Part shown: in pieces, positions 1,079 to 35,775 of the stretch
How the letters are laid out: every line of letters starts with the position of its first letter
Numbering within the stretch: position 1 is the stretch's first letter
Source: Nocardioides baekrokdamisoli
GTDB taxonomy: Bacteria; Actinomycetota; Actinomycetes; Propionibacteriales; Nocardioidaceae
Length of the DNA stretch: 64,000 nucleotides
Direction: 5' to 3'
Assembly (NCBI RefSeq): GCF_003945325.1
Contig: NZ_AP019307.1
Coordinates: forward strand, 1,612,001 to 1,676,000
Notes under the pieces: model-generated
Databases searched by the model: none
What the model saw: only the letters and a program-made list of their open reading frames with translations
What the model was told of the DNA's origin: nothing
Translations under genes and position numbers: made by a program

Positions 1079-1966
1079 CTAGTCACCCACGCGGCGCAAC
1101 GGATCCGGATCCGCGGGGACCGCGTGCTGGGGACGATCGACCAGACCCTCGAAGTCGGCGAAGCAGGCGACCGCGAAATCCACGCCGAAGGGAGTCAGGT
1201 GCAGGCTCTTGCGCAGCACCTTCGAGCGGCGTACGGACCTGGCCGCCTCGAGCACATCCGGCTGGGCTTCGACGACCTGGTAGCGCAGCAGGTCCTTGAC
1301 CGGATCGTCGCTCTCCCAGACCAGCCCGAGTCGGGTCAGGTTGATGAGGTAGGTCGGGATCGAGTCCGGCGAGCGGAGCGAGGCTCGGCCCCCGATCATG
1401 CTCAGGCCGCTGGCGAGTACGCGCTTGGAGTTGGAGACGATCACGTCGACGGTCGGCTGCGGGCCTTCCTTGAGCAGCAGGACGAGCATGCGTGCCTCGT
1501 CTGGCGCGATGCTCTTGAGGATCCCCTCGAACGCCGGGTGCCGCTCCTCCTCGTGCCAGACGTCACGCGAGCGGCGCAGCAGGTCCTCGCCGGCCCGCCG
1601 CAGGCGATCGGAGTCGCTCTGCTCGACCGGCTCCCCGGTGCCGAGTTGCTCGGCGATGCCCTTCGCGCGGTCCAGCAGGATCGCGCCGAACTCGGCAGCC
1701 CCAGCCAACGGCGTGTTCGCGGTGACCGCGCGGGCGAAGTCGGCGACCTGACCGGTCACCTTCGCGACGTCGTCCGCCAACTCGGCCGCGGCGATCGGGT
1801 CCACCGCCGCCTGGGCGATCCGGCGAGCACCCTTGCTGTACTGGGTCACACCCCAACCAGCGGTGCGTACGAGCGTGGTGGCGCCGATCCGCGCCAGACC
1901 CAGGCCCGACGTCAGGACCAGCCCGCCGTTCGTCTGCGGTGTCTCCTTCTTGCGTGCTCCAGCCAT
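1079..1966 (-). CDS. Abi-alpha / DUF4393-like protein
   Basis: A predicted 295-residue soluble protein. The C-terminal half has the pattern I associate with DUF4393 (Pfam Abi_alpha): DEARMLVLLLKEGP, an IPTYLINLTRLGLVWE block, and a terminal LTPFGVDFAVACF. The N-terminal third is a Gly/Ala-rich helix-prone stretch containing TRLVRTAGWGVTQ-like sequence. The ATG at 1966 overlaps the stop of the upstream DUF445-like gene as TGATG, which supports this start over the longer frame and suggests translational coupling. The family name comes from abortive-infection phage resistance, but no role is shown here. It sits between two DUF445-like membrane protein genes. The family call is moderately sure, the function is not. 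Confidence 0.75.
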   Translation of the reverse strand: MAGARKKETPQTNGGLVLTSGLGLARIGATTLVRTAGWGVTQYSKGARRIAQAAVDPIAAAELADDVAKVTGQVADFARAVTANTPLAGAAEFGAILLDRAKGIAEQLGTGEPVEQSDSDRLRRAGEDLLRRSRDVWHEEERHPAFEGILKSIAPDEARMLVLLLKEGPQPTVDVIVSNSKRVLASGLSMIGGRASLRSPDSIPTYLINLTRLGLVWESDDPVKDLLRYQVVEAQPDVLEAARSVRRSKVLRKSLHLTPFGVDFAVACFADFEGLVDRPQHAVPADPDPLRRVGD

Positions 1967-3246: not shown

Positions 3247-3309
3247 CTGGGGGCCTCCTTCGTCCGGTCGTCAGTGGTACGAACCGGCCCCCGACAGTTC
3301 TCGTCGCCG

Positions 3310-3316
3310 AATTTTA
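3310..3316 (-). promoter_or_regulatory. possible -10 element for the DUF445/Abi-alpha operon
   Basis: On the minus strand the sequence reads GTAAAAT, a TAAAAT hexamer about 65 bp upstream of the ATG at 3246. No convincing -35 hexamer is seen at 16-18 bp, so this is only a candidate. The rest of the 130-bp gap (3247-3376) shows no gene and no strong terminator after hspR. Confidence 0.3.
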
Positions 3317-3376
3317 CGGTCCGGCTTCCGTGAGAACTAACCCGAAAGGGCTACTGAGACCACTCTCACACAGCCT

Positions 3377-3817
3377 TCACGACGGGTTGCGCCGCCAGAC
3401 GACGACGGACTGACCGGGCTCCGGCGCCCGCAACACCGGGAGACGCGAGGCTGGCGCGCTCGTCTGGGAAGCGCGAGTGAGCGCCACCGTCTGGCGAGTG
3501 ACCTCCAGTTCGGCGGCGAGCTCGCGCACGCGCGTACGCAGGGCGTCAACCTGGTGCTCCAGATCCATGATCCGGCGTACGCCCTCAATGCCGATGCCGG
3601 TCGACGTCAGCGCTGCGATGTGGCGCAGGACGTCGATGTCGTGCGCGCTGTACCGACGGCCGCCGCCCCCGGTCCGGCCCGGAGTGATCAGGCCGAGACG
3701 TTCATACGTCCGCAGGGTCTGCGGGTGCAGGCCGGTGAGCTCGGCCGCCACCGAGATCACGTAGACGGCGTGGTCACGCTCCGGTTCGGGAGTGTGGCCG
3801 TACAACCCGGTGGTCAT
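3377..3817 (-). CDS. hspR: HspR, MerR-family heat-shock repressor
   Basis: A 146-residue MerR-type regulator. The helix-turn-helix lies near residues 20-65 with HPQTLRTYERLGLITPGR and GGRRYSAHDIDVL, followed by a coiled-coil dimerisation helix (about residues 85-112). In actinobacteria HspR binds HAIR palindromes and, with DnaK as co-repressor, represses the dnaK operon. Its gene is the last of dnaK-grpE-dnaJ-hspR, as is usual. The ATG overlaps the dnaJ stop (ATGA), so the two are translationally coupled. A HAIR site lies upstream of dnaK at 7581-7601, which closes the autoregulatory loop. The identification is strong. Confidence 0.95.
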   Translation of the reverse strand: MTTGLYGHTPEPERDHAVYVISVAAELTGLHPQTLRTYERLGLITPGRTGGGGRRYSAHDIDVLRHIAALTSTGIGIEGVRRIMDLEHQVDALRTRVRELAAELEVTRQTVALTRASQTSAPASRLPVLRAPEPGQSVVVWRRNPS

Positions 3818-4971: not shown

Positions 4972-5085
4972 TCGAAAGGTGAAGAAATTCGGTTCGAGAG
5001 GTGAATGGATCCGGGACCACTGCAGAAGACGGGCGGCGCGTACGCGATCCGCTCACCTCTCGAACCGAACTTCTTCACCTTTCGA
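4972..5085. repeat. 33-bp inverted repeat between grpE and dnaJ
   Basis: Bases 4972-5004 and 5053-5085 are inverted copies of each other, 33 bp each, differing at one position, with a 48-bp centre. One arm begins TCGAAAGGTGAAGAA and ends TTCGAGAGGTGA. Each arm also contains a degenerate direct repeat, CGAAAGGTGA and CGAGAGGTGA. In the transcript this would form a long stem just after the grpE stop (3 nt away) and just before the dnaJ ribosome site. It could be an mRNA processing or attenuation element, or a degenerate MITE-like insertion. No target duplication is obvious at the borders. Confidence 0.9.
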
Positions 5086-14229: not shown

Positions 14230-17200
14230 TTGCTGCAGACCATCGCCATCGTGGTGAGCCTGGCCATCAGCGCCGTAGCCATCTTCCTGACGGTCAAGGC
14301 CGTCCGGTCGATGCTCGCGGTGATCAAGGTCGGGCAACCGGCCGTTGGCCGCACCGACAAGCCGGGCAAGCGCCTGCTGACCATGCTGAAGGAGACCGCG
14401 CTCCACACCCGGATGCTGCAGTGGACCTGGGTCGGCATTCTGCACTGGTTCGCCTTCGCGGCGTTCCTGATCCTCTCGACTGCCGTCATGCAGGGCCTGG
14501 TCCAGCTCTTCGACCCGGAGTTCTCGTGGCCTCTGATCGGTCACTTCTTCCTCTTCGAGTGGGTCGAGGAGTTCATCGGTCTCCTCGGTGCGGTCGCGAT
14601 CCTCCCGCTCATCGCGTACCGCCTGATGCACCGCCCCGGCACCATGTCGGCCCGGCGTACGCGTTTCTACGGCTCGACCATGTGGCAGGCGTACTTCGTC
14701 GAAGCGATGGTCTTCATCGAGTCGATCGCGATCCTGTTCATCCGCGGCGCGGAGCGGAACCTCGAGCGGCTCACCGAGCCGGGCAAGTACTCCGACTTCC
14801 ACTACCCGCTGTCGCAGGGCTTCTCGGGCCTCTACTCCACGACCAACGAGCACGACATCAAGAACGCCATCGTCGTGATCGCAGCGTTCAAGGTGATCTC
14901 GGCGATGGTCTGGCTGATCGTCATCTCCTCGAACCTGACGATGGGTGTCGCCTGGCACCGCTTCACCGCTTGGTTCAACATCTACTTCAAGCGCGAGTCG
15001 ACCGGCCGCGACACTGACGGCGCGACTCTGGCGCTGGGCGCACTCAAGCCGCTCGTCTCGGCCGGCAAGGTGATCACCCTCGAGGACGTCGACGACCTCG
15101 ATGAGGACGCGAAGCTCGGTGTCGGCGCGATCGAGGACTTCTCCTGGAAGGGCATCCTCGACTTCACCACCTGCACGGAGTGTGGCCGTTGCCAGTCGCA
15201 GTGCCCGGCGTGGAACACGGAGAAGCCGCTCTCCCCGAAGCTCATGATGATGGGCCTGCGCCAGCACGCGTACGAGAAGGCCGCCGGTGTCGAGGGTGCT
15301 GCCGACCGTCAGCTCGTCGGCGCGGTCGACCTCGAGGACGGTCACCTCGATGACGCCCAGTCGTACTTCTACAACCCCGAGGGCGGCAACTTCGTCATCT
15401 CCGAAGACGCCCTGTGGTCCTGCACGACCTGTGGTGCCTGTGTCCAGCAGTGTCCGGTCGACATCGAGCACGTCGACCACTTCGTCGACATGCGTCGCTA
15501 CCAGGTGCTGGTCGAGTCGAACTTCCCGTCCGAGCTCAACGGCCTCTTCAAGGGCCTGGAGAACAAGGGCAACCCGTGGAACATGGCGCCGAACGCCCGT
15601 ATGGACTGGGCCAAGGACCTGCCGTTCGACGTCAACATTGTTGGTGAAGACATCGATGACCTGGACAGCGTCGAGTGGCTGTTCTGGATCGGTTGCGCCG
15701 GTGCGTACGAGGACCGCGCGAAGAAGACGGCCCGCGCCGTCGCCGAGCTCCTCAACATCTCCGGCACCACATTCGGCGTGCTCGGCAATGGCGAGACGTG
15801 TACGGGTGACTCCGCGCGTCGCGCCGGCAACGAGTTCCTGTTCCAGAGCCTGGCGGCCCAGAACGTGGAGACGTTCAAGGAGTTCAAGGTCAAGAAGGTC
15901 GTCTCGACCTGTGCTCACTGCTTCAACACGTTGAAGAACGAGTACAAGGAGTTCGGTATCGAACTCGAGGTCGTGCACCACACCCAGCTGCTGAACCGCC
16001 TCGTACGCGAGAAGAAGCTCAAGCCGGTTGCCGGCGGCGCCGGCGCGCACAGCCGCTCGATCACGTACCACGACCCCTGCTACATCGGTCGTCACAACGG
16101 TGTCTACAACCCGCCTCGCGAGCTGCTGGAGATCCTTCCCGGCGCCAAGGTCGTCGAGATGGAGCGCAACTCCGAGAAGTCCTTCTGCTGTGGCGCCGGT
16201 GGCGCCCGGATGTGGATGGAGGAGACGATCGGTGAGCGGATCAACCTCAACCGCACGGCCGAGGCCGTCGGTACGAACGCCGACCAGATCGCTGTCGGTT
16301 GCCCGTTCTGCCGCGTGATGTTGGCCGATGGTCTGACGAAGATGCAGGCCGACGGCGCTGCTCGCGAAGAGGTCGAGGTCCTCGACGTCGCGCAGATGCT
16401 GCTGGCATCGGTCAAGGGCGAGCAGGCCACCAAGTTGCTTCCGGGTCAGGGAACGCCCGTCGGCGCCCCCGTTGCTGCTCCGCCTGCCGCTCCCGTCACC
16501 GCGCCGGCTGCTGCTGTCGCGGTCGAGGAAGCTCCGGCTGCTCCGGTGGCACCCGCAGGTCCGGCTGGTGGCTCGCTCTTCGGCGACGCCCCGGCTGCGG
16601 CTCCGGCAGCTCCTGCCTCGACTGGTTCGTCCCTCTTCGATGCTGTTCCGGCTGCTCCCGCCGAGACCAAGCCGGCTGGTGGGTCGCTGTTCGACACCCC
16701 GGCGTCCACGGGCGGATCGCTGTTCGACACCCCAGCACCGGCGGCAGAGTCGGCGCCGGCGACTGGTGGCTCGCTCTTCGACGTCGCTCCGACCGAAACC
16801 GCCCCGGCTGCTGCGCCTGTGGCTCCTGCGGAGCCCGCAGAGCTTGCGTCGGACCTCAACGCCGGCGGTTCGCTGTTTGATCTGGCGCCGACCGAGGCCG
16901 CTCCGGCTGCCGTACCGGCCGCTCCCGCCGAGGCACCGAAGGCGGCCGAACCCGCAGCCCCGGCTCAGGACCTGAACTCGGGTGGCTCGCTGTTCGACCT
17001 CTCCGCGCCGGCTGCTCCAGCTGCTCCTCCGACCCCGGCGGTCGAGGAGCCGAAGGTCGCGGCACCTGCCGCAGAGGCTCCAGCAGCTCCCGCGTCGAGC
17101 GGTGCTGCGAGTGCGCCAGCCACGGACGTGGACATCCACGCGATGGGTTCGCTGTTCGACATCGCGGCTCCGGCCGGCGGTGTCGCTGCTGCGCCCGCTG

Positions 17201-17439
17201 CAGATGAACCTGTCGTAGCCGCGGTGCCGGAAACCGCTCCGGCGGAGGAAACTCCGTCGGAGGCTGTCGCCGAGGTACCGACCGATGCCGCGCCAGCAGA
17301 TGAGCCGGTGGAGACCTCGACCGAGGCGGAGCCAGCCGCGGCGCCGACACCGGCCGAGGCCCCGAAGTCATCAGGCGCGACGAACACGCCGCGTACCGAC
17401 GCCGACATCCACGGTGCAGGCTCGCTGTTCGATCTCTGA
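14230..17439 (+). CDS. membrane-bound Fe-S oxidoreductase (HdrD/GlcF-like) with GSLFD-repeat tail
   Basis: A 1069-residue protein starting at TTG after AGAGGAG. The first 240 residues hold about five membrane helices (NarI-like layout). Two 4Fe-4S motifs follow: CTECGRCQSQCPAWN near residue 315 and CTTCGACVQQCPVDIEH near 398. Then come two CCG-type cysteine domains, with CAHCFNTLKNEY and HDPCYIGRHNGV plus FCCGAGGARMWMEE. This core resembles actinobacterial Fe-S reductases such as M. tuberculosis Rv0338c, and electron transfer at the membrane is likely. From about residue 735 the chain becomes a 330-residue Ala/Pro-rich disordered tail with nine GSLFD-type motifs, the last forming the C-terminus (GAGSLFDL). 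Confidence 0.9.
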   Translation: MLQTIAIVVSLAISAVAIFLTVKAVRSMLAVIKVGQPAVGRTDKPGKRLLTMLKETALHTRMLQWTWVGILHWFAFAAFLILSTAVMQGLVQLFDPEFSWPLIGHFFLFEWVEEFIGLLGAVAILPLIAYRLMHRPGTMSARRTRFYGSTMWQAYFVEAMVFIESIAILFIRGAERNLERLTEPGKYSDFHYPLSQGFSGLYSTTNEHDIKNAIVVIAAFKVISAMVWLIVISSNLTMGVAWHRFTAWFNIYFKRESTGRDTDGATLALGALKPLVSAGKVITLEDVDDLDEDAKLGVGAIEDFSWKGILDFTTCTECGRCQSQCPAWNTEKPLSPKLMMMGLRQHAYEKAAGVEGAADRQLVGAVDLEDGHLDDAQSYFYNPEGGNFVISEDALWSCTTCGACVQQCPVDIEHVDHFVDMRRYQVLVESNFPSELNGLFKGLENKGNPWNMAPNARMDWAKDLPFDVNIVGEDIDDLDSVEWLFWIGCAGAYEDRAKKTARAVAELLNISGTTFGVLGNGETCTGDSARRAGNEFLFQSLAAQNVETFKEFKVKKVVSTCAHCFNTLKNEYKEFGIELEVVHHTQLLNRLVREKKLKPVAGGAGAHSRSITYHDPCYIGRHNGVYNPPRELLEILPGAKVVEMERNSEKSFCCGAGGARMWMEETIGERINLNRTAEAVGTNADQIAVGCPFCRVMLADGLTKMQADGAAREEVEVLDVAQMLLASVKGEQATKLLPGQGTPVGAPVAAPPAAPVTAPAAAVAVEEAPAAPVAPAGPAGGSLFGDAPAAAPAAPASTGSSLFDAVPAAPAETKPAGGSLFDTPASTGGSLFDTPAPAAESAPATGGSLFDVAPTETAPAAAPVAPAEPAELASDLNAGGSLFDLAPTEAAPAAVPAAPAEAPKAAEPAAPAQDLNSGGSLFDLSAPAAPAAPPTPAVEEPKVAAPAAEAPAAPASSGAASAPATDVDIHAMGSLFDIAAPAGGVAAAPAADEPVVAAVPETAPAEETPSEAVAEVPTDAAPADEPVETSTEAEPAAAPTPAEAPKSSGATNTPRTDADIHGAGSLFDL
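16567..17436 (+). repeat. nine coding repeats of a GSLFD-type motif
   Basis: Within the Fe-S protein tail, the motif GGSLFG, GSSLFD, GGSLFD (five times), MGSLFD and AGSLFD occurs near bases 16567, 16624, 16678, 16711, 16762, 16861, 16981, 17143 and 17416. The spacers are Ala/Pro/Glu-rich, from about 10 to 90 residues, and differ in sequence, while the motif is nearly invariant. Codons differ between copies (TTCGAC, TTCGAT, TTTGAT), so protein-level selection rather than very recent duplication is suggested. Confidence 0.9.
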
Positions 17440-17452
17440 TCGCAGGCAACTG

Positions 17453-25609: not shown

Positions 25610-26515
25610 ATGCCGTGGACCACTGCTCAGATCCCGAACCTTTCCGGCAGGACCGCTCTGGTCACCGGCCCGAGCACCGGCGGGATCGGCTTCTACACCG
25701 CCCGTGAACTGGCTCGCGCGGGCGCACACGTCCTCCTCGCGGGGCGTACGCCGGCCAAGTTGGACGAGGCGGCAGCGGCGATCAGCGCCGAGGTGCCGAA
25801 GGCGTCCACAGCGCCGGTCGTCGTCGACATGGCTTCACTGGAGTCGATCCGGTCGGCAGCGGCCTCGGTCACCGGTCCGTTGGACATCCTGGTCAACAAC
25901 GCCGGCGTGATGGCGACGCCGCACACCCGCACCGTCGACGGGTTCGAGCAGCAGTTCGGCACCAACCACCTCGGCCCGTTCCTGCTGACCGGACTCCTGC
26001 TCCCCCAGCTCGCCGAGGCGGGCGGCCGCGTGGTCAACGTCGCCAGCATCGGTCACAACGCCGCCGTACGTGCGCCCCTGCGGGACCCGTCGGTCGCCCC
26101 GCAGGTCTACAGCCGCTGGCAGGCGTACTTCCAGTCGAAACTGGCGAACCTCTACTTCACCTATGAGGGCGCTCGCCGCTTCGCCGCAGCCGGCCTCGAC
26201 GTGAGCACGTATGCAGCCCACCCCGGTTTCGCCGGGACCCACCTGGTCGGGAACGGGACCAGTTTCGGGTTCCTGTCGGCACCGGGCGATCGGGCCTACA
26301 AAGCGATGTCGCAGTCAGCCGAGGACGGCGCCCAGCCGTCGCTGATGGCGGCCACGGCCGAGCTGCCCTCGGGCACGTTCGTCGGCCCGTCCCGTCGGAT
26401 GACTCTCATCGGCCACCCCGAGGTGCAGAAGTCGTCCAAGCTCTCCTACAACGAGGCGTACGCCGCCCGGCTGTGGGAGATCTCGGAGAAGGCCACCGGA
26501 ATCACCTACCCCTGA
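25610..26515 (+). CDS. short-chain dehydrogenase/reductase
   Basis: A 301-residue SDR with the cofactor motif VTGPSTGGIGFYTARE, LAGRTPAKL suggesting NADP, the structural NNAGVMATPHTR, VNVASIGHNAA with the catalytic Ser, and YFQSK as YxxxK. The type resembles the retinol-dehydrogenase/oxidoreductase group of about 300 residues. It is 27 bp downstream of the LysE-family gene and may be read from the same transcript. Substrate is unknown. A hairpin element starts 2 bp after its stop. Confidence 0.92.
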   Translation: MPWTTAQIPNLSGRTALVTGPSTGGIGFYTARELARAGAHVLLAGRTPAKLDEAAAAISAEVPKASTAPVVVDMASLESIRSAAASVTGPLDILVNNAGVMATPHTRTVDGFEQQFGTNHLGPFLLTGLLLPQLAEAGGRVVNVASIGHNAAVRAPLRDPSVAPQVYSRWQAYFQSKLANLYFTYEGARRFAAAGLDVSTYAAHPGFAGTHLVGNGTSFGFLSAPGDRAYKAMSQSAEDGAQPSLMAATAELPSGTFVGPSRRMTLIGHPEVQKSSKLSYNEAYAARLWEISEKATGITYP

Positions 26516-26517
26516 CA

Positions 26518-26571
26518 ATCTTCCGAACGTTCGGATGGCAGGCGGGACGACCTTCCGAACGTTCGGAAGAT
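26518..26571. repeat. hairpin element with two CCGAACGTTCGG boxes, copy A (intergenic)
   Basis: A 17-bp perfect stem (26518-26534 with 26555-26571) contains CCGAACGTTCGG in each arm, with a 20-nt loop. It sits between convergent genes, so it could be a two-way terminator. The right arm is followed by CGGCGGAGGGGGT. A second copy with the same arms lies inside the E2 gene at 34469-34521, so this is an interspersed repeat rather than a local hairpin. Confidence 0.88.
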
Positions 26572-26583
26572 CGGCGGAGGGGG

Positions 26584-27378
26584 TCAGCGGGAGCGGGGCT
26601 TGAAGGCCGGCTCCACCTTCTTGGCGACGGCCTTCTGGATGATCTTGGTGTTCGCCCCGAAGAGCAGCGGGAGTTGCTCCCGGCGCTCGCGGGCGAACGT
26701 ACGCCGCGGTGAGGCCGACCAGGTGTCGTTGAAGAGCCGCTTGGCAGCTGCCAGAGCATCGGGTGACTTGGTGGCCAACTGCTGGGCGAACGCAGTTGCG
26801 GCGGTGATCGGGTCCTCGGCGATCTCGGTGACCAGACCGAGTTCGGCAGCGCGCGTACCGGAGAACATCTCGGCGGTCATGGTGAGGCGCTTGGCGGTGT
26901 CGATGCCGACGACCTCCGACAGCGACTGGATGCCGCTCATGTCCGGGATGATGCCCCACTTGCCCTCGAGCACCGACCAGTTGGAGTCAGCGGTCGCGAA
27001 GCGGAAGTCCGCACCGAGCGCGATCTGGACACCGCCGCCCAAGCAGTGACCCTTGACCGCGGCGATCACGGGTACCGGGATCCGGCGCCACGCCCAGGCG
27101 GCGTCCTGGAAGATGTTGGTGCCGTGCCACGGGCGAGGGATGAAGGTACGCGCGACGCGGCCGGGCTGCTTCATCACGGTCGCGAAGTCGAGGCCGGCAC
27201 AGAAGGCGTCGCCGTTGCCCGCGATGACGACCGCGCGCACGGACTTGTCCTTGCGCAACCGGTGGGCGACCGCGACCAGTTCCTCGAGGACGTCGAGGGT
27301 GAGTGCATTGAGCTTGTCGGGCCGGTTCAGCCGGACCTGGGCAATGCCGTCGGTGATCTCGCAGGTGACTACAGACAT
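26584..27378 (-). CDS. enoyl-CoA hydratase/isomerase (crotonase) family
   Basis: A 264-residue crotonase that hydrates or isomerises enoyl-CoA in beta-oxidation. The two oxyanion-hole regions are AGNGDAFCAGLDF and AVKGHCLGGGVQIALGAD. The active-site region reads VLEGKWGIIPDMSG, where PDMSG replaces the common PGxGGT, a variant of some actinobacterial crotonases. The ATG at 27378 follows the shared operator by 10 bp. That operator links it to the fadE gene at 22999. Confidence 0.92.
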   Translation of the reverse strand: MSVVTCEITDGIAQVRLNRPDKLNALTLDVLEELVAVAHRLRKDKSVRAVVIAGNGDAFCAGLDFATVMKQPGRVARTFIPRPWHGTNIFQDAAWAWRRIPVPVIAAVKGHCLGGGVQIALGADFRFATADSNWSVLEGKWGIIPDMSGIQSLSEVVGIDTAKRLTMTAEMFSGTRAAELGLVTEIAEDPITAATAFAQQLATKSPDALAAAKRLFNDTWSASPRRTFARERREQLPLLFGANTKIIQKAVAKKVEPAFKPRSR

Positions 27379-27387
27379 GCAGACAAT

Positions 27388-27403
27388 GCTACTCGCGAGT
27401 AAC
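27388..27403 (-). promoter_or_regulatory. shared operator GTTACT-SGCG-AGTAGC, copy 2 (enoyl-CoA hydratase)
   Basis: GCTACTCGCGAGTAAC (plus strand) has the symmetrical core TACTCGCGAGTA, a perfect 12-bp palindrome. Its reverse complement differs from the site at 22952-22967 in a single base. It lies 10 bp upstream of the start codon, where a repressor would block transcription or initiation. Confidence 0.78.
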
Positions 27404-27432
27404 TTAGCCGCGCCATGTGAAGCAGCACACGC

Positions 27433-28236
27433 CTAGCGGCCGGCTGCGGCTTTCGCTGCCTTGCGCTCGGCCCGCAGGCGGAGCTCCTCGGTGTACGCGG
27501 CAGCCGCCTCGTCCAGCGTCGGGGCGCCACCCCCGTACGCGGCCGGAAGCCACCACGCCTTCTCCGCGACACCCTGCTCGAAGTTCGGGTCGGCGAAGAT
27601 CATCGGCTCCAGGAGTGCTTCCATCCGACGCCGGAGTTCGGCGGTCTCGGCGACCGGGTCCTCCCCCGTGACGGCCAGCGGCTCGCCCACGGCGATCTGC
27701 ACGTGGTGGTGGCGCGGCTCAAGTTTGCGGCCCTTGGCCATGATCCGCTGCGTACCCCACACGACGACCGGGATGACCGGCACGCCGGCCTCGGCGGCGA
27801 TGCGTACGGTGCCGGTCTTGACGTCCTTGATGACGTAGCTCTGGGAGATGGTGCCCTCGGAGAAGATCCCGACGACCTCACCGTTCTTGAGGCGTACGAC
27901 GCACTCAGCCATGCCGTCCGCGCCGGCTGCCCGGTCGAGGCTGATGTGGTTGCAGCCGCGCATGATCGGACCGGTCTTGCTGTTGTCGAACAGCTCCGAC
28001 TTCGCCACGAACCGGGTGAAACGACCACGCTTGACCCCCGGGAAGCCCTGGATCAGGTAGTCGACGAACGACAGGTGGTTGCACGCCAGCAACGCCGGCC
28101 CATCAGCCGGAATGTGCTCGAGGCCGGACATCTCAACGGTGATGTCACCGACCCGGAACCACGCCAGCGCGGCACGAATGATCGTGCGGTACGTCCGGTC
28201 GCGGTTCTTGTAGGGACTCTTCTCCATACGCATCAT
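27433..28236 (-). CDS. 1-acyl-glycerol-3-phosphate acyltransferase (PlsC-like)
   Basis: A 267-residue acyltransferase for phosphatidate or related lipid synthesis. It has the HX4D motif in ACNHLSFVDYL, the substrate motif GCNHISLDR and GIFSEGTISQS in place of FPEGTRS. The C-terminal 60 residues are charged and Ala-rich. The ATG overlaps the desaturase stop (ATGA), so it is coupled to the desaturase and may place new unsaturated acyl chains. Membrane association is expected. Confidence 0.9.
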   Translation of the reverse strand: MMRMEKSPYKNRDRTYRTIIRAALAWFRVGDITVEMSGLEHIPADGPALLACNHLSFVDYLIQGFPGVKRGRFTRFVAKSELFDNSKTGPIMRGCNHISLDRAAGADGMAECVVRLKNGEVVGIFSEGTISQSYVIKDVKTGTVRIAAEAGVPVIPVVVWGTQRIMAKGRKLEPRHHHVQIAVGEPLAVTGEDPVAETAELRRRMEALLEPMIFADPNFEQGVAEKAWWLPAAYGGGAPTLDEAAAAYTEELRLRAERKAAKAAAGR

Positions 28237-29435
28237 GCGTCGAGTTCCTTCTGTAGCGCCTCACGGGTCGCCTGGTCGGAGTTGGTCATCTGCTTCAACA
28301 GCCGGAGCTGCTTCGGAAGGGTGCGGACGGTCGTCTTCTGCAGCCAGTTGTTGGGCAGCGACAACCGGACGATGCGGTGCCAGGCCGAAGCGACCTGAGG
28401 AATGAACGGGCGGCTGTTGTAGTCCAGCGCGTACCGCTCGAAGAGGTTGCGCACCCGCGGAGCGACCTGGGCGTACCGGTTCGACGGCAGGTCCGGCCAG
28501 ATGTGGTGCTCGATCTGGTGCGACAGGTTGCCGCTCATCAGGTGCAGCAACGGCGGGCCGGAGATGTTGGCCGAGCCGAGCATCTGGCGCAGGTACCACT
28601 CGCCGCGGGTCTCGTCGGGGTCGATCGCCTCGGTCTCGAAGGTCTGGACGCCCTCGGGGAAGTGCCCGCACATGATGATCGCGTGGGACCAGACGTTGCG
28701 GATCACGTCGGCGGTGAAGTTGGCTGCGAGCGTCGTCAGGAACGAGGGGCCGGACAGGGCCGGCAGGAGTACGTACTCCTTGAACGCCTGGCGCTTCACC
28801 TTGTCGAGCGTGCGCTTGGCATCGCTGTGCCATTCGGGGGAACGGTCCTTCATCGGTACGCCCTTGAGCTGACCGACGTTCAGGTCGTACGCCGCGATGC
28901 CGTACTGGAAGAACAGCATGTTGAAGAAGTTCAGGACTGGCTGCGCGAGATGACGCGGCTCCCAGGTCTGGTCCTCATCGACCCGCATGATCCCGTAGCC
29001 GAGGTCGTTGTCCTGGCCGACGATGTTCGTGTACGTGTGGTGGGTCTCGTTGTGGCTGCGCTGCCAGAGGTCCGTCGGGGTGGCGGAGTCCCAGTCCCAG
29101 ACCGTCGAATGGATCTTCGAGTCCCGCATCCAGTCCCACTGACCGTGCAAGACGTTGTGGCCGATCTCCATGTTGTCGAGGATCTTGGCGATCGACAGGC
29201 CAGCGGTGCCGAGCAGCCAGGCCGGCGGGAAGATGCTCACCATCAGGACCGCGCGCGACCCGATCTCGAGGTAGCGCTGCGCCTTGATCACTCGACGGAT
29301 GTACGCCGCGTCCGCTGCACCACGACTCTCCATGACCTCGCGGCGGATCTCGTCCAACTCACGGCCGATCGCCTCGATGTCAGCGGCGGTCAGGTGTGAG
29401 ATCGGCGAGTTCGCCTGCTTCGTCACAGCGGTCAT
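28233..29435 (-). CDS. acyl-CoA fatty-acid desaturase, DesA3-like
   Basis: A 400-residue membrane di-iron desaturase. The three His boxes are HNVLHGQWDW, HNETHH and HQIEHH. Hydrophobic segments near residues 60-90 and 185-250 fit the membrane desaturase fold. The arrangement resembles M. tuberculosis DesA3 (Rv3229c), which makes oleic acid from stearoyl-CoA with the reductase Rv3230c. Here the reductase gene lies 3 bp upstream and an acyltransferase gene overlaps downstream, so the three form an operon. The regiospecificity is inferred. Confidence 0.94.
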   Translation of the reverse strand: MTAVTKQANSPISHLTAADIEAIGRELDEIRREVMESRGAADAAYIRRVIKAQRYLEIGSRAVLMVSIFPPAWLLGTAGLSIAKILDNMEIGHNVLHGQWDWMRDSKIHSTVWDWDSATPTDLWQRSHNETHHTYTNIVGQDNDLGYGIMRVDEDQTWEPRHLAQPVLNFFNMLFFQYGIAAYDLNVGQLKGVPMKDRSPEWHSDAKRTLDKVKRQAFKEYVLLPALSGPSFLTTLAANFTADVIRNVWSHAIIMCGHFPEGVQTFETEAIDPDETRGEWYLRQMLGSANISGPPLLHLMSGNLSHQIEHHIWPDLPSNRYAQVAPRVRNLFERYALDYNSRPFIPQVASAWHRIVRLSLPNNWLQKTTVRTLPKQLRLLKQMTNSDQATREALQKELDA

Positions 29436-29438
29436 GAA

Positions 29439-30560
29439 TCATTTCCTCGCGGTAATGGCGCAGGCCCCGGCAGCACCGTTGATGCAAGTCTGCACCGAGA
29501 CGCCGTTTTCCGCAGTCTCCCCCGGACGCGCCTCGACAATCGTGCCAGTCCGGAGGTCGCGCACCGCGCCCTCGGTCATCGGCAAGACGCATCCCATGCA
29601 GATGCCCATCCGGCAACCGCTCGGCATCAGGACCCCCGCTGCCTCTGCAGCGTCGAGGATCGTGCTGCCCGCCGGAACGTCGATGACCTGGCCGGCGATC
29701 GCGACAGTGCCGCCTTCTGCCGGGGTGATCGTCGAGACCCGGAACTGTTCGATCTGGAGTTCGAGACCACGCTCGTCGTGGTGCGTACGCAGTGCGTCCA
29801 GGAGGGGGCCGGGACCGCAGGCGTACGTGACGCGCTCGGCGAGGTCCGGGACCAAGGACCCGAGCTGCTCGACGTCGAAGAAGCCGTACTCGTCGTCATA
29901 GTGGGTGATCAGGTTGATCGCGCCAGCGGACCCGAGCTCCTCGAGGTTGCGCACGAAGATCGAGTCCGGGTGGCTGGGCGCGAGGTGGACCACGGTGACG
30001 TCGAGGTCGGAGTGCGGGCGCACCCCCTCGTCGGTCACCGGGTAGAGGTTTCGCAGCATCCCGATGACCGGGGTGATGCCCGACCCGGCGGTCACGAACA
30101 GCAGTCGTCGGTGGCTCTGATCGAGGACGAACTCGCCGGCTGCCTGCTCGAGGTGCACGATCGTGCCGGGCTTGGTCTGATGCACCAAGAACGGACTGAC
30201 CACGCCATCCCGGACGGCCTTGACGGTGATCGAGATCCGACGATCGCGACGCGGTCCGTGGGTCAGTGAGTACGCCCGCCAGTGGCGTACTCCGTCGACA
30301 TCGATGCCGATCCGGATGTACTGCCCCGGAACGTGCCCGGCCCAGTCACGACCGGGCTGCAGCACGATCGTGGCGGCGTCGCGGGTCTCCGGCTGGACCT
30401 CGACGATCCGGGCACGGAGCGGTGCACCGGAGCGCAACGGGGCGACCAGGTCGAGGAAGTCGTCGGGGTCGTGCGGCGTCAGCGCCATCTCGGCGAACCG
30501 GCGTCCGCGGGCACGGACGAGCGCGCCGAACCCGCTGGGTACGTCGTTGGTGATGGCCAT
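29439..30560 (-). CDS. ferredoxin-NADP(H) oxidoreductase with fused 2Fe-2S domain, desaturase partner
   Basis: An electron-transfer protein of about 373 residues. The FAD motif is RAYSLTHG, the NAD(P) motif GSGITPVIGML, and the C-terminal plant-type 2Fe-2S domain has CRMGICMGC and a later Cys in VQTCING. It feeds electrons to the desaturase 3 bp downstream. An ATG at 30569 adds three residues; the ATG at 30560 is preferred because AGGATGGG lies just before it. The gene is divergent from a PucR-like regulator. It resembles Rv3230c, the DesA3 partner. Confidence 0.93.
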   Translation of the reverse strand: MAITNDVPSGFGALVRARGRRFAEMALTPHDPDDFLDLVAPLRSGAPLRARIVEVQPETRDAATIVLQPGRDWAGHVPGQYIRIGIDVDGVRHWRAYSLTHGPRRDRRISITVKAVRDGVVSPFLVHQTKPGTIVHLEQAAGEFVLDQSHRRLLFVTAGSGITPVIGMLRNLYPVTDEGVRPHSDLDVTVVHLAPSHPDSIFVRNLEELGSAGAINLITHYDDEYGFFDVEQLGSLVPDLAERVTYACGPGPLLDALRTHHDERGLELQIEQFRVSTITPAEGGTVAIAGQVIDVPAGSTILDAAEAAGVLMPSGCRMGICMGCVLPMTEGAVRDLRTGTIVEARPGETAENGVSVQTCINGAAGACAITARK

Positions 30561-30626
30561 GTATCCCATCCTGAATCGGGATGCGTCTAAAGTCCTGTGT
30601 ATCAGGCGTGAATAACCAGCCGCAGA

Positions 30627-30643
30627 TTGTTCGTGGAGAACAA
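30627..30643 (+). promoter_or_regulatory. palindrome TTGTTC-N5-GAACAA at the PucR-like gene start
   Basis: A perfect 6-5-6 inverted repeat ends directly before the ATG at 30644 and covers its GGAGAA ribosome site. It lies in the short region between the divergent reductase and regulator genes. It may be an operator for the regulator itself or a translational hairpin. Confidence 0.6.
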
Positions 30644-31771
30644 ATGAGTACGAGTTTTGAAACGCTACCCCCGGAGCTGATCGATCAACTCCGGACGAGT
30701 CTGCCGACCGTCGCCGACGAGGTGGTAGCGGCGGTGATCGCGGGGGTGCCCAGCTATCAGCGGGCGCTGCAGGGACCGATGGGCCAGACCATCGCCAACG
30801 CGGTCCATCTGGCCCTCGACGGCTTCCTCAACCTGGGGCCCACCGAGGCCGGCCCCACGCCGCCGGCCGTCGACGGCGCCTTCAAGTTGGGTCGGGGCGA
30901 GGCTCGGTCCGGGCGTACGACGGAGGCGCTGCTGGCCGCGTACCGGATCGGCGCGCGTACGGCGTGGGAGCGCCTGTCCGGGATCGCCGTGGACAACGGC
31001 ATGAGCCCGAAGGCTCTGGCCGAGTTCGCTGGCATGACCTTTGCGTACATCGACGTACTCTCGGACGCCTCCGCGGCCGGCCATGCCGAGGAGCAGGCGA
31101 CCGCCGGGCGTGCGCGGCAGCGGTATCTCGAGCAGCTCGCGCGGCTGCTCGTCGAAGGCGCCTCAGCCGACGCGATCGAGGCCTCTGCGGAAGCCGCCGA
31201 ATGGCCCCTCCCGACCAACCTCACCGCGATCATCACGCCGCTGGCGCAGACCGGGACCGTGCTCGCGGGCCTGCCGGCAGCGACCCTGGCGTTGGCCGAG
31301 GCGCCCGGCGCGGCAGACGCATTGCTGCTCTGGGTGCCCGATGCGGGCAGGGGCCTACTGAAACGCGCAGCCAGCGGGCTCGGCGCCGTGATCGGCCCGA
31401 CGCGTCCGTGGCGCGAGGCCGACGCGTCCTTCAACCGGGCCGTACGCGCCTGGCAGAACAACCTCCTCGGTGACACCGACGACCATCTGGTCACCCTGCT
31501 GCTGCGCTCGGATCCTGCGGCGCTCGCGGATCTGCGCGTACGCATGCTGGCGCCGCTGGAATCGCTGCGGCCCTCGGCCGCCGAGAAGCTGACCGAGACG
31601 CTGCGGTCGTGGCTGCTGCACCACGGGCGCCGTGAGGACATCGCGGCGGCACTGTTCGTGCACCCGCAGACCGTGCGATACCGGATGCAGCAACTGCGGG
31701 ATCTGTATGGCGATCGGCTCGAGGATCCGGAGACCGTACTCGCGCTGACCGTGGCGCTGGGTGATGGCTGA
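30644..31771 (+). CDS. PucR/CdaR-family transcriptional regulator
   Basis: A 375-residue regulator. The C-terminal helix-turn-helix (PucR/HTH_30) reads GRREDIAAALFVHPQTVRYRMQQL-like, with the motif HPQTVRYRMQQLRDLYG. The N-terminal region is helical with LPTVADEVVAAVIAGVPSYQ, common in actinobacterial PucR proteins. The start ATG is at 30644 after GGAGAAC. Divergent position to the desaturase operon suggests that it controls it, which fits known actinobacterial arrangements but is inferred. The carboxyltransferase gene follows by 25 bp. Confidence 0.88.
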   Translation: MSTSFETLPPELIDQLRTSLPTVADEVVAAVIAGVPSYQRALQGPMGQTIANAVHLALDGFLNLGPTEAGPTPPAVDGAFKLGRGEARSGRTTEALLAAYRIGARTAWERLSGIAVDNGMSPKALAEFAGMTFAYIDVLSDASAAGHAEEQATAGRARQRYLEQLARLLVEGASADAIEASAEAAEWPLPTNLTAIITPLAQTGTVLAGLPAATLALAEAPGAADALLLWVPDAGRGLLKRAASGLGAVIGPTRPWREADASFNRAVRAWQNNLLGDTDDHLVTLLLRSDPAALADLRVRMLAPLESLRPSAAEKLTETLRSWLLHHGRREDIAAALFVHPQTVRYRMQQLRDLYGDRLEDPETVLALTVALGDG

Positions 31772-31796
31772 TGCGCGGAGTCATTAGGGTTTCGCC

Positions 31797-33209
31797 GTGC
31801 CTCGCGTGACCGCCCGTGACCTGATCGGCCAGCTCTTCGACTCCTGGGAGTCGTGGGATGTGCCGGCGTCGTACGTCGGGCTGCCCGAGACCTACTCGTA
31901 CGAACTGGCGACCGCGGCACACAAGGCGGGCGTCGATGAGTCCGTGCTGACCGGCGAGGCCGTGCTCGGTGGGATCCGGGTCGCGGTGCTGGTGTCGGAG
32001 TTCGGGTTCCTGGCAGGGTCGGTCGGGCGGGCTGCGTCCGAGCGGCTGATCGCGGCGATCGAGCGGGCCACTGCCGAAGGCCTCCCGCTGATCGGGCTGC
32101 CCTGCTCCGGCGGGACCCGGATGCAGGAGGGCACTCCGGCTTTCGTGCAGATGGTGCGGATCGGTGCCGCCATCGCAGCCCATCGGGCCGCGCACCTGCC
32201 GTATGTTGTCTGGCTGCGGAACCCGACCACCGGTGGCGTGATGGCCACCTGGGCGTCACTGGGTCAGATCGTGTGGGCGGAGCCGGGCGCGCTCGCCGGC
32301 TTCCTCGGACCGCGGGTGTACGAGGCGATCCACGGCGAGCCGTTCCCCGAAGGAGTGCAGGTCGCGGAGAACCTTGCCGCGCGCGGCGTGATCGACGAGG
32401 TCGTGCCTCTGGCATCGCTCCGGTCGCGGCTGATCGAGGTGACGTCGGTGCTGGCGCCTCCCGCCGGACCGCGCGCGGGCGAGCTGAGCCAGGTCGCGAG
32501 CTCCACCGATCCCGATGCGTGGGACTCGATCCTCACCACCCGATCAGCCCGCCGCCCCGGGATCCGCGAACTCCTCACCGGCGTCCCGCACGTACCCCTC
32601 AGCGGCACCCAGGCCGGCGAGGCCGACCCGGGCATCCTGCTGGCCGTGGCTCGATTCGGTGACCAGCCGTGCGTCGTCGCCGCCCAGGACCGGGCGATGC
32701 AGGCGCGTACGCCGTTCGGGCCCGCGGGGCTTCGGACGGTACGTCGCGGGATCCAGCTCGCGTCAGAGCTGGGCGTCCCGCTCGTGACAGTGATCGACAC
32801 CCGAGGGGCAGCTCTGTCGGCCGAGGCCGAGAACGGGGCGATGGCTGGCGAGATCGCCCGCACCCTGTCCGACCTCGTCAGTGCAACCTGTCCCACCGTG
32901 TCGGTGATGCTCGGCGAGGGCAACGGCGGCGGCGCGCTCGCGATCCTGCCGGCCGATCGGATCATCGCCACCGAGGCTGGCTGGCTCTCACCGCTGCCAC
33001 CCGAAGGTGCCTCGGCGATCGTGCACCGCGACATCGCCCATGCCGACCAGATGGCTCGCGCGCAGAAGGTACGGGTCCAGGATCTGCCGATCGACGTGTT
33101 CGTTCCGGAGGGCGAGCGCCTCACCCAGCGCGTACGCGCCGCGATCGGTGCGGCCGTCGCCGGACTGGTGGCCGGGACCGCGCAGAGCCGCGCCGACCGG
33201 TTCGCCTGA
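31797..33209 (+). CDS. acetyl-/acyl-CoA carboxylase carboxyltransferase, fused beta-alpha (AccD-like)
   Basis: A 470-residue carboxyltransferase starting at GTG 31797. The beta half has VLVSEFGFLAGSVG, PCSGGTRMQEG and LRNPTTGGVMATWAS. The alpha half has FGPAGLRTVRRGIQLA and MLGEGNGGGALAILPADRI with oxyanion-forming glycines. The size and fusion fit M. tuberculosis AccD3 better than the 540-residue propionyl-CoA types. It would transfer carboxyl from biotin to an acyl-CoA; the biotin carboxylase partner is not in this window. No zinc finger is seen at the N-terminus. Confidence 0.9.
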   Translation: MPRVTARDLIGQLFDSWESWDVPASYVGLPETYSYELATAAHKAGVDESVLTGEAVLGGIRVAVLVSEFGFLAGSVGRAASERLIAAIERATAEGLPLIGLPCSGGTRMQEGTPAFVQMVRIGAAIAAHRAAHLPYVVWLRNPTTGGVMATWASLGQIVWAEPGALAGFLGPRVYEAIHGEPFPEGVQVAENLAARGVIDEVVPLASLRSRLIEVTSVLAPPAGPRAGELSQVASSTDPDAWDSILTTRSARRPGIRELLTGVPHVPLSGTQAGEADPGILLAVARFGDQPCVVAAQDRAMQARTPFGPAGLRTVRRGIQLASELGVPLVTVIDTRGAALSAEAENGAMAGEIARTLSDLVSATCPTVSVMLGEGNGGGALAILPADRIIATEAGWLSPLPPEGASAIVHRDIAHADQMARAQKVRVQDLPIDVFVPEGERLTQRVRAAIGAAVAGLVAGTAQSRADRFA

Positions 33210-33216
33210 GTGCTGC

Positions 33217-33600
33217 CTAGCAGCCCGTGACCGTACCTAGGACCACTGGATCGACGTCCGGAGCGTCGTAGCCGTAGTGGATGTCGGACGGCACCGACTT
33301 CAGCAGTCCGGCAAAGACCAGCGTCTTCATGTCAGGGGCATAGATCCCGTTCTGCCGGTGGTAGAGCTCGGTCGCATTCGTCACCTCGGTGACATCAACG
33401 CGGCACTGCGCGACCGCGGCCTCGTCGCTCGGAGCCACCGAGACCGTCGGGAACGGTGACGTCCGGATCGGCGGCAGGCCGTCGGGCGTGCTCGGCCCGA
33501 TCGTCGGAGACGATCCGCCACCTGCCGACGAACTGCCGCACGCCGTCAACACCGCCATGGCGACAGCCATGCCGAGGGCGTACGCACTGCGAGAAGTCAT
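33217..33600 (-). CDS. small lipoprotein with pilin/GspG-like C-terminal region
   Basis: A 127-residue lipoprotein. The signal MTSRSAYALGMAVAMAVL ends at the lipobox LTAC, with Cys 21 as the lipid-bearing residue. A Gly/Ser/Pro-rich linker follows. Residues 70-100 (ATELYHRQNGIYAPDMKTL) recall the post-helix region of GspG/pseudopilins, including a Tyr-x-Asn-Gly-x-Tyr-like pattern, but the pilin helix itself is absent. Two further cysteines are present. Function is unknown. It lies convergent to the carboxyltransferase gene and downstream of the bkd operon. Confidence 0.8.
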   Translation of the reverse strand: MTSRSAYALGMAVAMAVLTACGSSSAGGGSSPTIGPSTPDGLPPIRTSPFPTVSVAPSDEAAVAQCRVDVTEVTNATELYHRQNGIYAPDMKTLVFAGLLKSVPSDIHYGYDAPDVDPVVLGTVTGC

Positions 33601-33622
33601 TGCTCCATCATCGCGTGTCGGC

Positions 33623-34792
33623 CTAGAAGGTGAGAGCCGTACCCGGTTCCTCGATCATCCGGACGATGTCCCGGAGGAAGCGCGAACCAGCCTCGCCGTC
33701 GATGTGACGGTGGTCGAAGGTGAGGCTGACAGTGACCACATCGCGCGGAACGACCGCGTCACCCACGACCCACGGGCGCTTGGCGACCGCGCCGATACAC
33801 AGGATCCCGCTCTCGCCCGGGTTGAGCAGCGGCGTACCACCCTCGATCCCGAACGGGCCGATGTTGGTGATCGTGAAGGTCCCGGCGACCTGCGCCTCGG
33901 GTTGGGTACGCCCGGCGCGCGCGACGGCGACGAGGTCATCGAGCGCCGACTCGAGGCTCGCGAGGTCGAGACGATCGGCTTCGCGGATGTTCGGCACGAT
34001 CAGGCCGCGTGGGGTAGCCGCCGCGATGCCGAGGTTCACGCGTTCGTGCAGGGTCACCCCGTCCGCGGTGAACGTCGAGTTCAGCAACGGGTGTCGCTGC
34101 AGCGCGATGACCGTCATCCGGGCGATGACGGTGAGCAATCGACGGCCGACCCGCTCGGCGAGCTCGAGAGTCCGGGTGGCGTCCGTGCTCGCCCAGATGG
34201 TCACGTGTGGCACCGCTGCGGAGGCGACCATCGCCTCGGCCATTGCCTTGCGTACGCCGCGGATCGGCTCGAAGGTCTCCATCGGCGGCTCGGCGACGCG
34301 CGTGAGATCGTCGGTGGTGATCACGCCGTCAGCGCGGGTGGCGACCACCGCCTCGAGCTCGATGCCGCGCTCTCGGGCAGCCAGCCGAGCCGCAGGTTTG
34401 GCGAGGACGACGCGGGAGGCCCGGATCTCCTTCGGCCCGGACCCGACCAGCGTGAGGGGTTGTGCCGAATCGTCCGAACGTTCGGATGATGCAGAGGGGA
34501 CCGTCCGAACGTTCGGAAGATCGGCGGGGGGTGTTGATGGGACCGACACCACCTCGTCCACCGCTCCGATCCGGACCAACGCAGTCCCCACGGGCACCGT
34601 GGTGCCGACTGGCACGAGGATCTCCGAGACCACGCCGGCGTACGGCGTCGGCAACTCGACGACCGACTTCGCGGTCTCGATCTCGCAGATGATGTCGTTG
34701 ATCGCGACGGTGTCGCCGACGTCGACCCGCCAGGTCACCAACTCGGCCTCGGTCAGGCCCTCACCGACATCGGGCAGCGCGAACTCATTCAC
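33623..34792 (-). CDS. bkdC: branched-chain 2-oxo acid dehydrogenase E2 (dihydrolipoyl acyltransferase)
   Basis: A 389-residue E2 with one lipoyl domain (CEIETAKSVVELP, lipoylated Lys), a peripheral subunit-binding domain (KPAARLAARERGIELE) and the catalytic domain ending with DHRHIDGEAG. GTG at 34792 overlaps the E1-beta stop as GTGA and is preferred to a TTG at 34801. It moves acyl groups from E1 to CoA in Val/Leu/Ile breakdown or branched fatty-acid priming. The flexible linker between lipoyl and binding domains is encoded by an interspersed hairpin element (34469-34521), which appears to be an in-frame insertion. Substrate class is inferred from operon context. Confidence 0.92.
   Translation of the reverse strand: MNEFALPDVGEGLTEAELVTWRVDVGDTVAINDIICEIETAKSVVELPTPYAGVVSEILVPVGTTVPVGTALVRIGAVDEVVSVPSTPPADLPNVRTVPSASSERSDDSAQPLTLVGSGPKEIRASRVVLAKPAARLAARERGIELEAVVATRADGVITTDDLTRVAEPPMETFEPIRGVRKAMAEAMVASAAVPHVTIWASTDATRTLELAERVGRRLLTVIARMTVIALQRHPLLNSTFTADGVTLHERVNLGIAAATPRGLIVPNIREADRLDLASLESALDDLVAVARAGRTQPEAQVAGTFTITNIGPFGIEGGTPLLNPGESGILCIGAVAKRPWVVGDAVVPRDVVTVSLTFDHRHIDGEAGSRFLRDIVRMIEEPGTALTF
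34469..34521. repeat. hairpin element with two CCGAACGTTCGG boxes, copy B (inside bkdC)
   Basis: The arms 34469-34485 and 34505-34521 pair over 17 bp with one mismatch and a 19-nt loop. The right flank AAGATCGGCGG is the same as in copy A at 26518-26571. Here the element lies in the coding strand of the E2 linker and is read in frame as DLPNVRTVPSASSERSDD. Confidence 0.88.
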
Positions 34793-35775
34793 CACGACCA
34801 ACTCCGATCGATCGCCTCCAGCACCCGGTCCACATCAGGCAACCACGACTCCTCGACCCGGGAAGGCGGATACGGGGTGTCGTACCCGCCGACCCGCAGC
34901 ACCGGCGCCTCCAACGAGTGGAAGCACTCCTGCATGACACGGGCCGCGACCTCGGACCCCATGCCGAGATTCACATGCGCTTCATGCACCACCACCACAT
35001 GACCGGTGGCGCGGGCGGCGGCGAGGACCGGGTCGAGGTCGAGCGGCGAGAGCGTACGCAGATCGATGACGCCGACCGACCGCCCTTGACGTTCGGCCTC
35101 CTCGGCCGCCGCGACACAGGTCGCCACCGTCGGCCCGTACGCCACCAACGTGGCCTCCGAGCCCTCGCGTACGACCCTGGACGCCCACAGCGACTGCGGG
35201 CTCTCGTCGAGGGAGATGTCCGCCTTCGCGGCGTGATACTGGCGCTTGGGTTCGAGGAAGATCACGGGGTCGTCCGAGGCGATCGCCTGCTGGATCATCC
35301 AGTAGCCGTCGACCGGGTTGGAACAGGCGACGACGTTCAGCCCCGGGGTGTGCGCGAACTGCGCCTCGGGCGACTCCGAGTGATGCTCGACTGCGCCGAT
35401 GCCGCCGCCGAACGGGATCCTGATCACCACCGGCAGACTCCACCGACCGCCCGAGCGATAGTGCAGCTTCGCGAGCTGGCACACGATCTGGTCGTACGCG
35501 GGGTAGACGAAGCCATCGAACTGGATCTCGACCACCGGCCGGTAGCCACGCATCGCCAGGCCAATCGCGGTGCCGACGATCCCGGACTCGGCCAACGGGG
35601 TGTCGATGACCCGCCCCTCGCCGAAGTCCTTGAGCAGGCCGTCCGTGACCCGGAAGACGCCACCCAACGCGCCGATGTCCTCCCCGAGGAGGACCACCTT
35701 GGGGTCGTCCTCCATCGCCTTCCGGAGGCCAGCGTTGAGCGCCTTCGCCAGTGTGATCGACGTGAGGGTGGTCAT
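34789..35775 (-). CDS. bkdB: branched-chain 2-oxo acid dehydrogenase E1 beta
   Basis: A 328-residue E1 beta subunit, member of the transketolase C-terminal fold. Features are VVLLGEDIGALGGVFRVTDG, DTPLAESGIVGTAIGLAM, IRIPFGGGIGAVEHHSES and VVHEAHVNLGMGSEVAARV. Both ends overlap neighbours by 4 bp (ATGA with E1 alpha, GTGA with E2), so the three subunits are translationally coupled. With E1 alpha it forms the thiamine-diphosphate decarboxylase of the complex. Confidence 0.94.
   Translation of the reverse strand: MTTLTSITLAKALNAGLRKAMEDDPKVVLLGEDIGALGGVFRVTDGLLKDFGEGRVIDTPLAESGIVGTAIGLAMRGYRPVVEIQFDGFVYPAYDQIVCQLAKLHYRSGGRWSLPVVIRIPFGGGIGAVEHHSESPEAQFAHTPGLNVVACSNPVDGYWMIQQAIASDDPVIFLEPKRQYHAAKADISLDESPQSLWASRVVREGSEATLVAYGPTVATCVAAAEEAERQGRSVGVIDLRTLSPLDLDPVLAAARATGHVVVVHEAHVNLGMGSEVAARVMQECFHSLEAPVLRVGGYDTPYPPSRVEESWLPDVDRVLEAIDRSWSW

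Follow-up and report, generated by a model that had tools for sequence, protein, structure and literature searches.

Dispersed arrays of an invariant palindrome, between genes and in frame within protein linkers, in Nocardioides baekrokdamisoli

Two arrays in the window and the family they belong to

We analysed a 64,000-nucleotide stretch of the Nocardioides baekrokdamisoli chromosome (positions 1,612,001-1,676,000 of the single 2,965,302-base contig, hereafter the window), in which a short palindrome occurs in two arrays. The repeated core is the 12-mer CCGAACGTTCGG, which extends to an invariant 14-mer, TCCGAACGTTCGGA. As listed in Table 1, array A lies between a short-chain dehydrogenase (SDR) gene and a convergent enoyl-CoA hydratase/isomerase gene, and array B lies in frame within the gene for an E2 protein (2-oxoacid dehydrogenase acyltransferase; putatively of the branched-chain type named in the earlier note), where it falls in the hinge between the lipoyl and E3-binding domains. 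An earlier note on this DNA had described the two as copies of one hairpin with the core in both arms and a common right flank, the first between convergent genes and the second in frame in the E2 hinge, and all of this was found. At up to one mismatch the window holds four matches to the core, all of them exact, against a mean of 0.39 after shuffling; none of 100 shuffles reached four. Since the arms are palindromes in their own right, the copies are direct repeats as well as inverted repeats.

The whole-genome search for core pairs that the earlier note had proposed as a check revealed 13 further arrays. The genome contains 35 exact cores and no copy of the reversed control. All 35 sit in 15 arrays (loci L016-L030), of which ten hold two copies and five hold three; no exact core stands alone. 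The 14-mer is identical in 35/35 copies, the spacers differ among arrays, and the claim that the arms are kept while the loops differ was thus upheld. Core-to-core spacing is 31, 32 or 33 bp, so the spacing of 31-32 bp given earlier fits the window copies and is too narrow for the genome. A two-copy unit is 55-57 nt long and runs from an RATCTT-type end through the cores to an AAGATY-type end. Read outward, the outer flanks are AAGATY (A at +4 in 29/30, T at +5 in 30/30), and the inner flanks are AHGG (G at +3 in 38/40, G at +4 in 29/40). Since outer flanks are unlike inner ones, the array has defined ends. On the plus strand the two sides of the arrays also differ slightly (T at outer position 6 in 10/15 left vs 3/15 right, p 0.025; pyrimidine at inner position 5 in 15/15 left vs 10/15 right, p 0.042), which may be chance.

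A chance origin of the family is countered by the shuffles, by the reversed control and by a palindrome control, in which 493 kb of the own genome held no other palindromic 10- or 12-mer that recurred within 60 bp, and 536 kb of congener loci held no such 12-mers and four such 10-mers. The dispersed array family is real, stands clearly above chance and extends beyond the two window copies. Clustering on the chromosome found little support (Rayleigh p 0.23, with origin and terminus not located), and a nucleoid-occlusion reading suggested by a gap in the distribution was dropped after this test. No dnaA or parS motifs were seen in the own-genome stretches examined, and GC skew was too noisy to place the origin.

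Outside this genome the pair pattern is rare. It was present in 1/96 relatives first searched, namely the own genome, and in 2/341 genomes of the family, the second being the Nocardioidaceae metagenome-assembled genome (MAG) Lab288P1bin133 (G299), a member of the same genus. A scan of 84,980 species, which may not include the own genome, returned the pair only in the Nocardioidaceae MAG, in Variovorax and in a Clostridia MAG. The Nocardioidaceae MAG holds two arrays only, CTAA-core-TGAAT...ATTCA-core-TTAG and CTAA-core-TGAGA...TCTCA-core-TTAG, with a spacing of 29-30 and flanks unlike those of the own arrays; one lies between convergent genes and the other between tandem genes. Variovorax sp. 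WDL1 carries two 12-mer pairs (L048:1367-1412 and L050:5425-5465), and the Clostridia MAG has the pair in one place. Viral contigs searched for the pair gave 0 matches, and neither plasmids (copy B only) nor phages (copy A only) gave a match, which weakens a phage or plasmid origin.

The second Variovorax pair precedes a TetR gene by 39 bp and resembles an autoregulated operator; this neighbour gives a hint of what type of protein may recognise the palindrome. A TetR gene also adjoins the array at L030, and a TetR-like open reading frame (ORF) overlaps the array at L018. The latter gave a weak local match to an ORF beside one MAG array (E 0.002, 14/47 identical), for which no Pfam or NCBIfam match was found. 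The L030 TetR did not match the same ORF, and no shared subfamily was shown.

Placement, reading frame and spacing

With genes called by codon usage trained on the window genes, 6/15 arrays lie wholly within ORFs and in frame, one overlaps a gene 3' end and eight are intergenic. Only 6/15 arrays are inside genes, vs 83% coding sequence (p 2e-4). Among the nine non-genic arrays six lie between convergent genes, vs 32/199 gaps (16%; 19% of gap bases; p 0.001-0.002), the background being gaps of >=20 bp in 394 kb of own sequence. Divergent intergenic regions hold 0/15 arrays; the two in tandem regions could be promoter-proximal. The single 3'-end case concerns the TetR-like ORF, which codon-usage calling had missed and whose TetR_N match (E 9e-5) is just under the cut-off.

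Within coding sequence the cores are translated in three frames, as PNVR, ERS and RTF, which indicates that the constraint is on DNA and not on peptide. Spacing follows placement. All six genic arrays have a spacing of 31 (five) or 33 (one, L017), and the other nine arrays, with 14 spacings, are all at 32 (Fisher 2e-4, for a pattern noticed post hoc). Most simply, the length of the 32-type unit does not divide by three, and only its indel variants were retained within genes.

A second palindromic repeat, with core GAGGTTGCGCAGCAACC, occurs in other congeners (11/58 genomes, up to 62 copies) and is absent from the own genome (0 copies). This repeat or its variants stand in frame in five congener E2 hinges (L090, L091, L099, L101 and L102), where they encode the peptide VVEEVAQQPSR and variants, twice in L099, L101 and L102; further dispersed places of the family are loci L115-L144. 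Array B being a different repeat in the same hinge, the E2 hinge seems to have acquired palindromic repeats more than once.

Table 1. Arrays, cores, genes and other features; window positions unless a locus is named
Feature	Position or locus	Strand	Remarks
Array A	26517-26572	none	AATCTT-core-20 nt spacer-core-AAGATC; intergenic, convergent genes, spacing 32
Core A1	26523-26534	none	14-mer at 26522-26535
Core A2	26555-26566	none	14-mer at 26554-26567
SDR gene	25610-26515	+	stop codon 1 bp before array A
Enoyl-CoA hydratase/isomerase gene	26584-27378	-	convergent; its end 11 bp past array A
Array B (L025)	34468-34522		AATCGT-core-19 nt spacer-core-AAGATC; in frame in E2, about residues 94-112, spacing 31
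Core B1	34474-34485		E2 frame reads part of SSERSD
Core B2	34505-34516		E2 frame reads PNVR
E2 gene	33623-34801	-	lipoyl 6-78, E3-binding 132-166, catalytic 175-389
Array in cobaltochelatase-like gene	L017		genic; TIGR02442 729.6 bits, under cut-off 779.5
Array in mycothiol synthase gene (MshD)	L023		genic; 193.1 bits, cut-off 163.1
Array in window's E2 gene (array B above)	L025		genic
Array in PabB-like gene	L026		genic; 304.2 bits, under cut-off 328.4
Array in MenD gene	L027		genic
Array in NuoG gene	L028		genic; gene at 1625-3394 (+)
Array at 3' end of TetR-like ORF	L018		ORF at 2871-3404 (-); last residues LPNVRKECA and stop within array
Six arrays	L016, L020, L021, L022, L024, L029		intergenic, convergent genes
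Two arrays	L019, L030		intergenic, tandem genes
Long inverted repeat	4972-5085		40-nt arms, 93% complementary, 34 nt apart
Iron-sulfur type protein ORF	about 16442-17447	+	C-terminal Ala/Pro-rich tail with GGSLFD repeats

An RNA-family scan of the 15 loci gave one match, a cobalamin riboswitch (RF00174, 61 bits, L017:4040-4206, minus strand) away from the array and just upstream of the array-bearing cobaltochelatase-like gene. In the eight loci scanned for them, no tRNAs were associated with the arrays. Elsewhere in the window, the long inverted repeat is a separate feature, and the loci examined gave no second copy of those pieces of it that were searched, and the iron-sulfur type protein is presumably of the CCG type.

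Proposed spread of the arrays and constancy of the cores

The cores are constant where their surroundings are not. Pairs spaced at 32, the one spacing searched at up to three mismatches, numbered 14 in the own genome, all with 0 mismatches. In 394 kb of own sequence there were one one-mismatch and 30 two-mismatch sites, vs medians of 3 and 28 for 11 palindromes of the same composition as the core, so that single near-matches are not in excess there. One degenerate pair, at 748 kb among the two-mismatch matches listed (up to 1.107 Mb), lacks the T..A flanks and was taken as chance. In the five three-copy arrays the spacers within an array differ at 2, 3, 4, 5 and 9 of 20 positions (23/100), and the cores at none; the chance of such unchanged cores under neutrality is about 1e-8, or 2e-5 when L021, the most diverged array, is left out. 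Unvarying palindromes of this kind suggest reading by some protein. The likeness of the paired spacers within these arrays points to tandem duplication of a 32-bp unit.

The predicted single-strand fold was strong in 12/15 elements tested (z -5.2 to -9.0), which follows from the two self-complementary cores. Beside the cores, paired bases were found at 8/20 vs 7.8 expected for inner position 2, at 30/40 vs 29.3 for inner positions 3-4, at 18/80 vs 21.6 for inner positions 5-8 and at 19/45 vs 20.1 for outer positions 6-8; no significant compensatory change was found at inner 2-8 or at outer 2 and 6-8. As co-variation is not significant at the variable positions that adjoin the cores, recognition of double-stranded DNA by a protein is favoured over a hairpin. 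The earlier idea that the hairpin is the conserved thing was not borne out, and pairing is weakened as the main conserved feature.

With modest confidence, we favour the reading that these are lineage-specific dispersed palindrome arrays, whose unit has spread and whose cores are kept by a dimeric DNA-binding protein. The unit would have spread as a whole by some copying step, and copies would survive where they do little harm, that is, past gene ends, chiefly convergent ones, and in frame in inter-domain linkers, much as in Rickettsia palindromic elements (RPEs). Three-copy arrays would have arisen by tandem duplication of the 32-bp core and spacer. Binding of a dimeric protein, possibly of TetR-type helix-turn-helix, may keep the cores letter-perfect, and two or three double-stranded sites would then lie on one helix face, 31-33 bp being about three DNA turns.

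A number of further observations bear on this reading, most of them against it. The first group concerns the linkers, for which congener rows were available from 29/39 genomes for MenD and E2 and from 23/25 for NuoG and PabB; the length comparison covered these four genic arrays, and for MshD the comparison was with solved structures alone. The MenD linker has 40 residues vs 21-30 (median 24) in 29 congener rows, a gain of about 16, which speaks for the reading. Such a net gain was not seen in E2, whose hinge has 53 residues vs 67-145 in 29 rows (many of them 41-50% identical, and perhaps not strict orthologues), nor in PabB, with 38 residues vs 29-48 in 22 rows, one row without linker (L192) having been left out of the count. 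In NuoG the 47 residues round the array compare with 60-79 in 23 rows and are at least 13 fewer. The arrays thus occupy variable linkers, with net gain only in MenD, and the roughly 18 extra residues that the earlier note saw in the E2 hinge find no support as a net gain. The shorter NuoG looks as if the array took the place of part of a domain. Core tetrapeptides (PNVR, ERSE/ERSD, FRTF), counted singly, were present in 1/29 E2, 0/29 MenD, 1/23 NuoG and 0/23 PabB rows. In E2, 28/29 rows lack them and one has a lone PNVR. Neither outcome that the earlier note had named as refuting came about: further copies turned up in the genome, and these E2 rows lack the core tetrapeptides apart from that one.

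The spacing rule is also exposed, as the 33-spaced L017 would need a second indel and the frame argument fails without it. At L021 a truncated extra unit with a half core lies right of the third core; it is the sole broken copy seen and indicates that units can break. Two-mismatch sites in the whole genome number 244, vs 110 for the reversed pattern, an excess that vanishes against composition-matched palindromes in the 394 kb in which these were compared. The absence of decayed copies is equally expected from a very recent burst. Two signs are hairpin-like: both MAG arrays (n=2) have matching inner arms, and outer position 2 is paired in 14/15 arrays vs 12.3 expected (p 0.14), through L022, changed on both sides. 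In nine arrays with a 20-nt spacer the spacer middles gave a slight, non-significant likeness, borderline in the given orientation, with 55/1000 shuffles as alike (210/1000 with the best orientation). The TetR hint is based on one unrelated bacterium. As for a mover, the Y1_Tnp transposase of REP-associated tyrosine transposases (RAYT; PF01797) was found in 0/40 genus genomes, the own one included, and in 5/14 controls, other transposases not having been searched, and a resident enzyme of this type is weakened as the mover.

An ordinary selfish palindrome, resembling an RPE or a miniature inverted-repeat transposable element (MITE), may instead have moved as a hairpin in a recent burst, with arms needed by the mobiliser only and loops altered by the mechanism itself. 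We hold this tentatively as an alternative that is doubtful and still deserves attention. The strong predicted fold, the in-frame genic copies, the 339/341 family genomes without the pair, and the matching changes seen at both outer ends of L022 and within each MAG array are all in its favour. So are the defined outer ends. The arrays carry inverted RATCTT/AAGATY ends, whose palindromic GATC-like sequence would mask a target-site duplication. This alternative is met by the spacers that diverged within tandem arrays while the cores stayed unchanged, by the non-significant co-variation beside the cores, and by the missing PF01797. The arrays could also be the working sites of a chromosome-wide DNA-binding system, spread like a mobile element, that bridges the 15 loci as an organiser or silencer specific to this lineage, which we regard as rather unlikely. 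If this were true, core metabolic genes would carry working protein-binding sites in frame within their linkers.

Two further readings appear improbable to us. Transcription terminators at gene ends, acting as hairpin or protein roadblock and in some cases captured by coding regions, would agree with the convergent excess and with the stable predicted hairpins, but a search of array A, the only array scanned, found no T-run terminator (window 26400-26700), six arrays are well within genes, and the co-variation that a hairpin should leave is not significant. That the arrays serve as operators through which an ordinary transcription factor controls the adjoining genes has just as small a probability in our judgement: the Variovorax pair preceding a TetR gene and the TetR neighbours at L030 and L018 speak for it, but these neighbours may be chance, and of the 15 arrays none is divergent, six being convergent and six within genes.

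Likeness to known systems

In Rickettsia and Wolbachia, palindromic elements are dispersed short repeats that stand in frame in conserved genes, in differing reading frames. Core genes with palindromic elements in frame are best known from these two genera, and how such elements originate is not known to have been explained. An actinobacterial case in a one-contig genome offers a direct route to asking whether it is a bound protein or their recent spread that preserves such elements, and how proteins acquire linker segments from DNA repeats. The present arrays share with those elements that they are dispersed multi-copy palindromes (15 arrays, 35 cores), 6/15 of them in frame in conserved proteins. 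They differ in being actinobacterial and in having two or three self-palindromic cores, unlike spacers and an invariant 14-bp core; Rickettsiales were not among the matches of the 84,980-species scan. The likeness to RPEs drawn by the earlier note thus stands for the dispersed palindrome and its in-frame sites in linkers of conserved proteins, and does not stand for a net gain in E2 or for the hairpin as the conserved feature. The likeness reaches as far as placement.

Repetitive extragenic palindromes and bacterial interspersed mosaic elements, which go with RAYT transposases, are likewise palindromic, mostly outside genes and often between convergent genes. In contrast to these, the present family includes copies in coding sequence and repeats a perfect palindrome in phase, in a genome where PF01797 was not found. 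The GAGGTTGCGCAGCAACC repeat of congeners, for which we know of no curated name, is also a dispersed palindrome in frame in E2 hinges, but it has another sequence and by eye forms a single stem-loop with interrupted arms. Also comparable are the sites of SlmA, Noc and MatP, multi-site chromosome-binding proteins: palindromes of about a dozen bases that recur a few dozen times along the chromosome, in part within genes. Unlike those, the present palindromes always come in arrays of two or three, with no distribution bias shown by the Rayleigh test, and amount to 20 pairs in the own genome; among the 341 family genomes one other has the pair, twice and with different flanks. Clustered regularly interspaced short palindromic repeat (CRISPR) arrays are built of repeats of about 23-50 nt and are accompanied by cas genes; here 14-nt repeats lie in 15 dispersed arrays. 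What is new in comparison with these systems is the modular build of the arrays, in which the cores do not vary, the spacers are unlike, and a spacing rule separates genic (31/33) from non-genic (32) copies.

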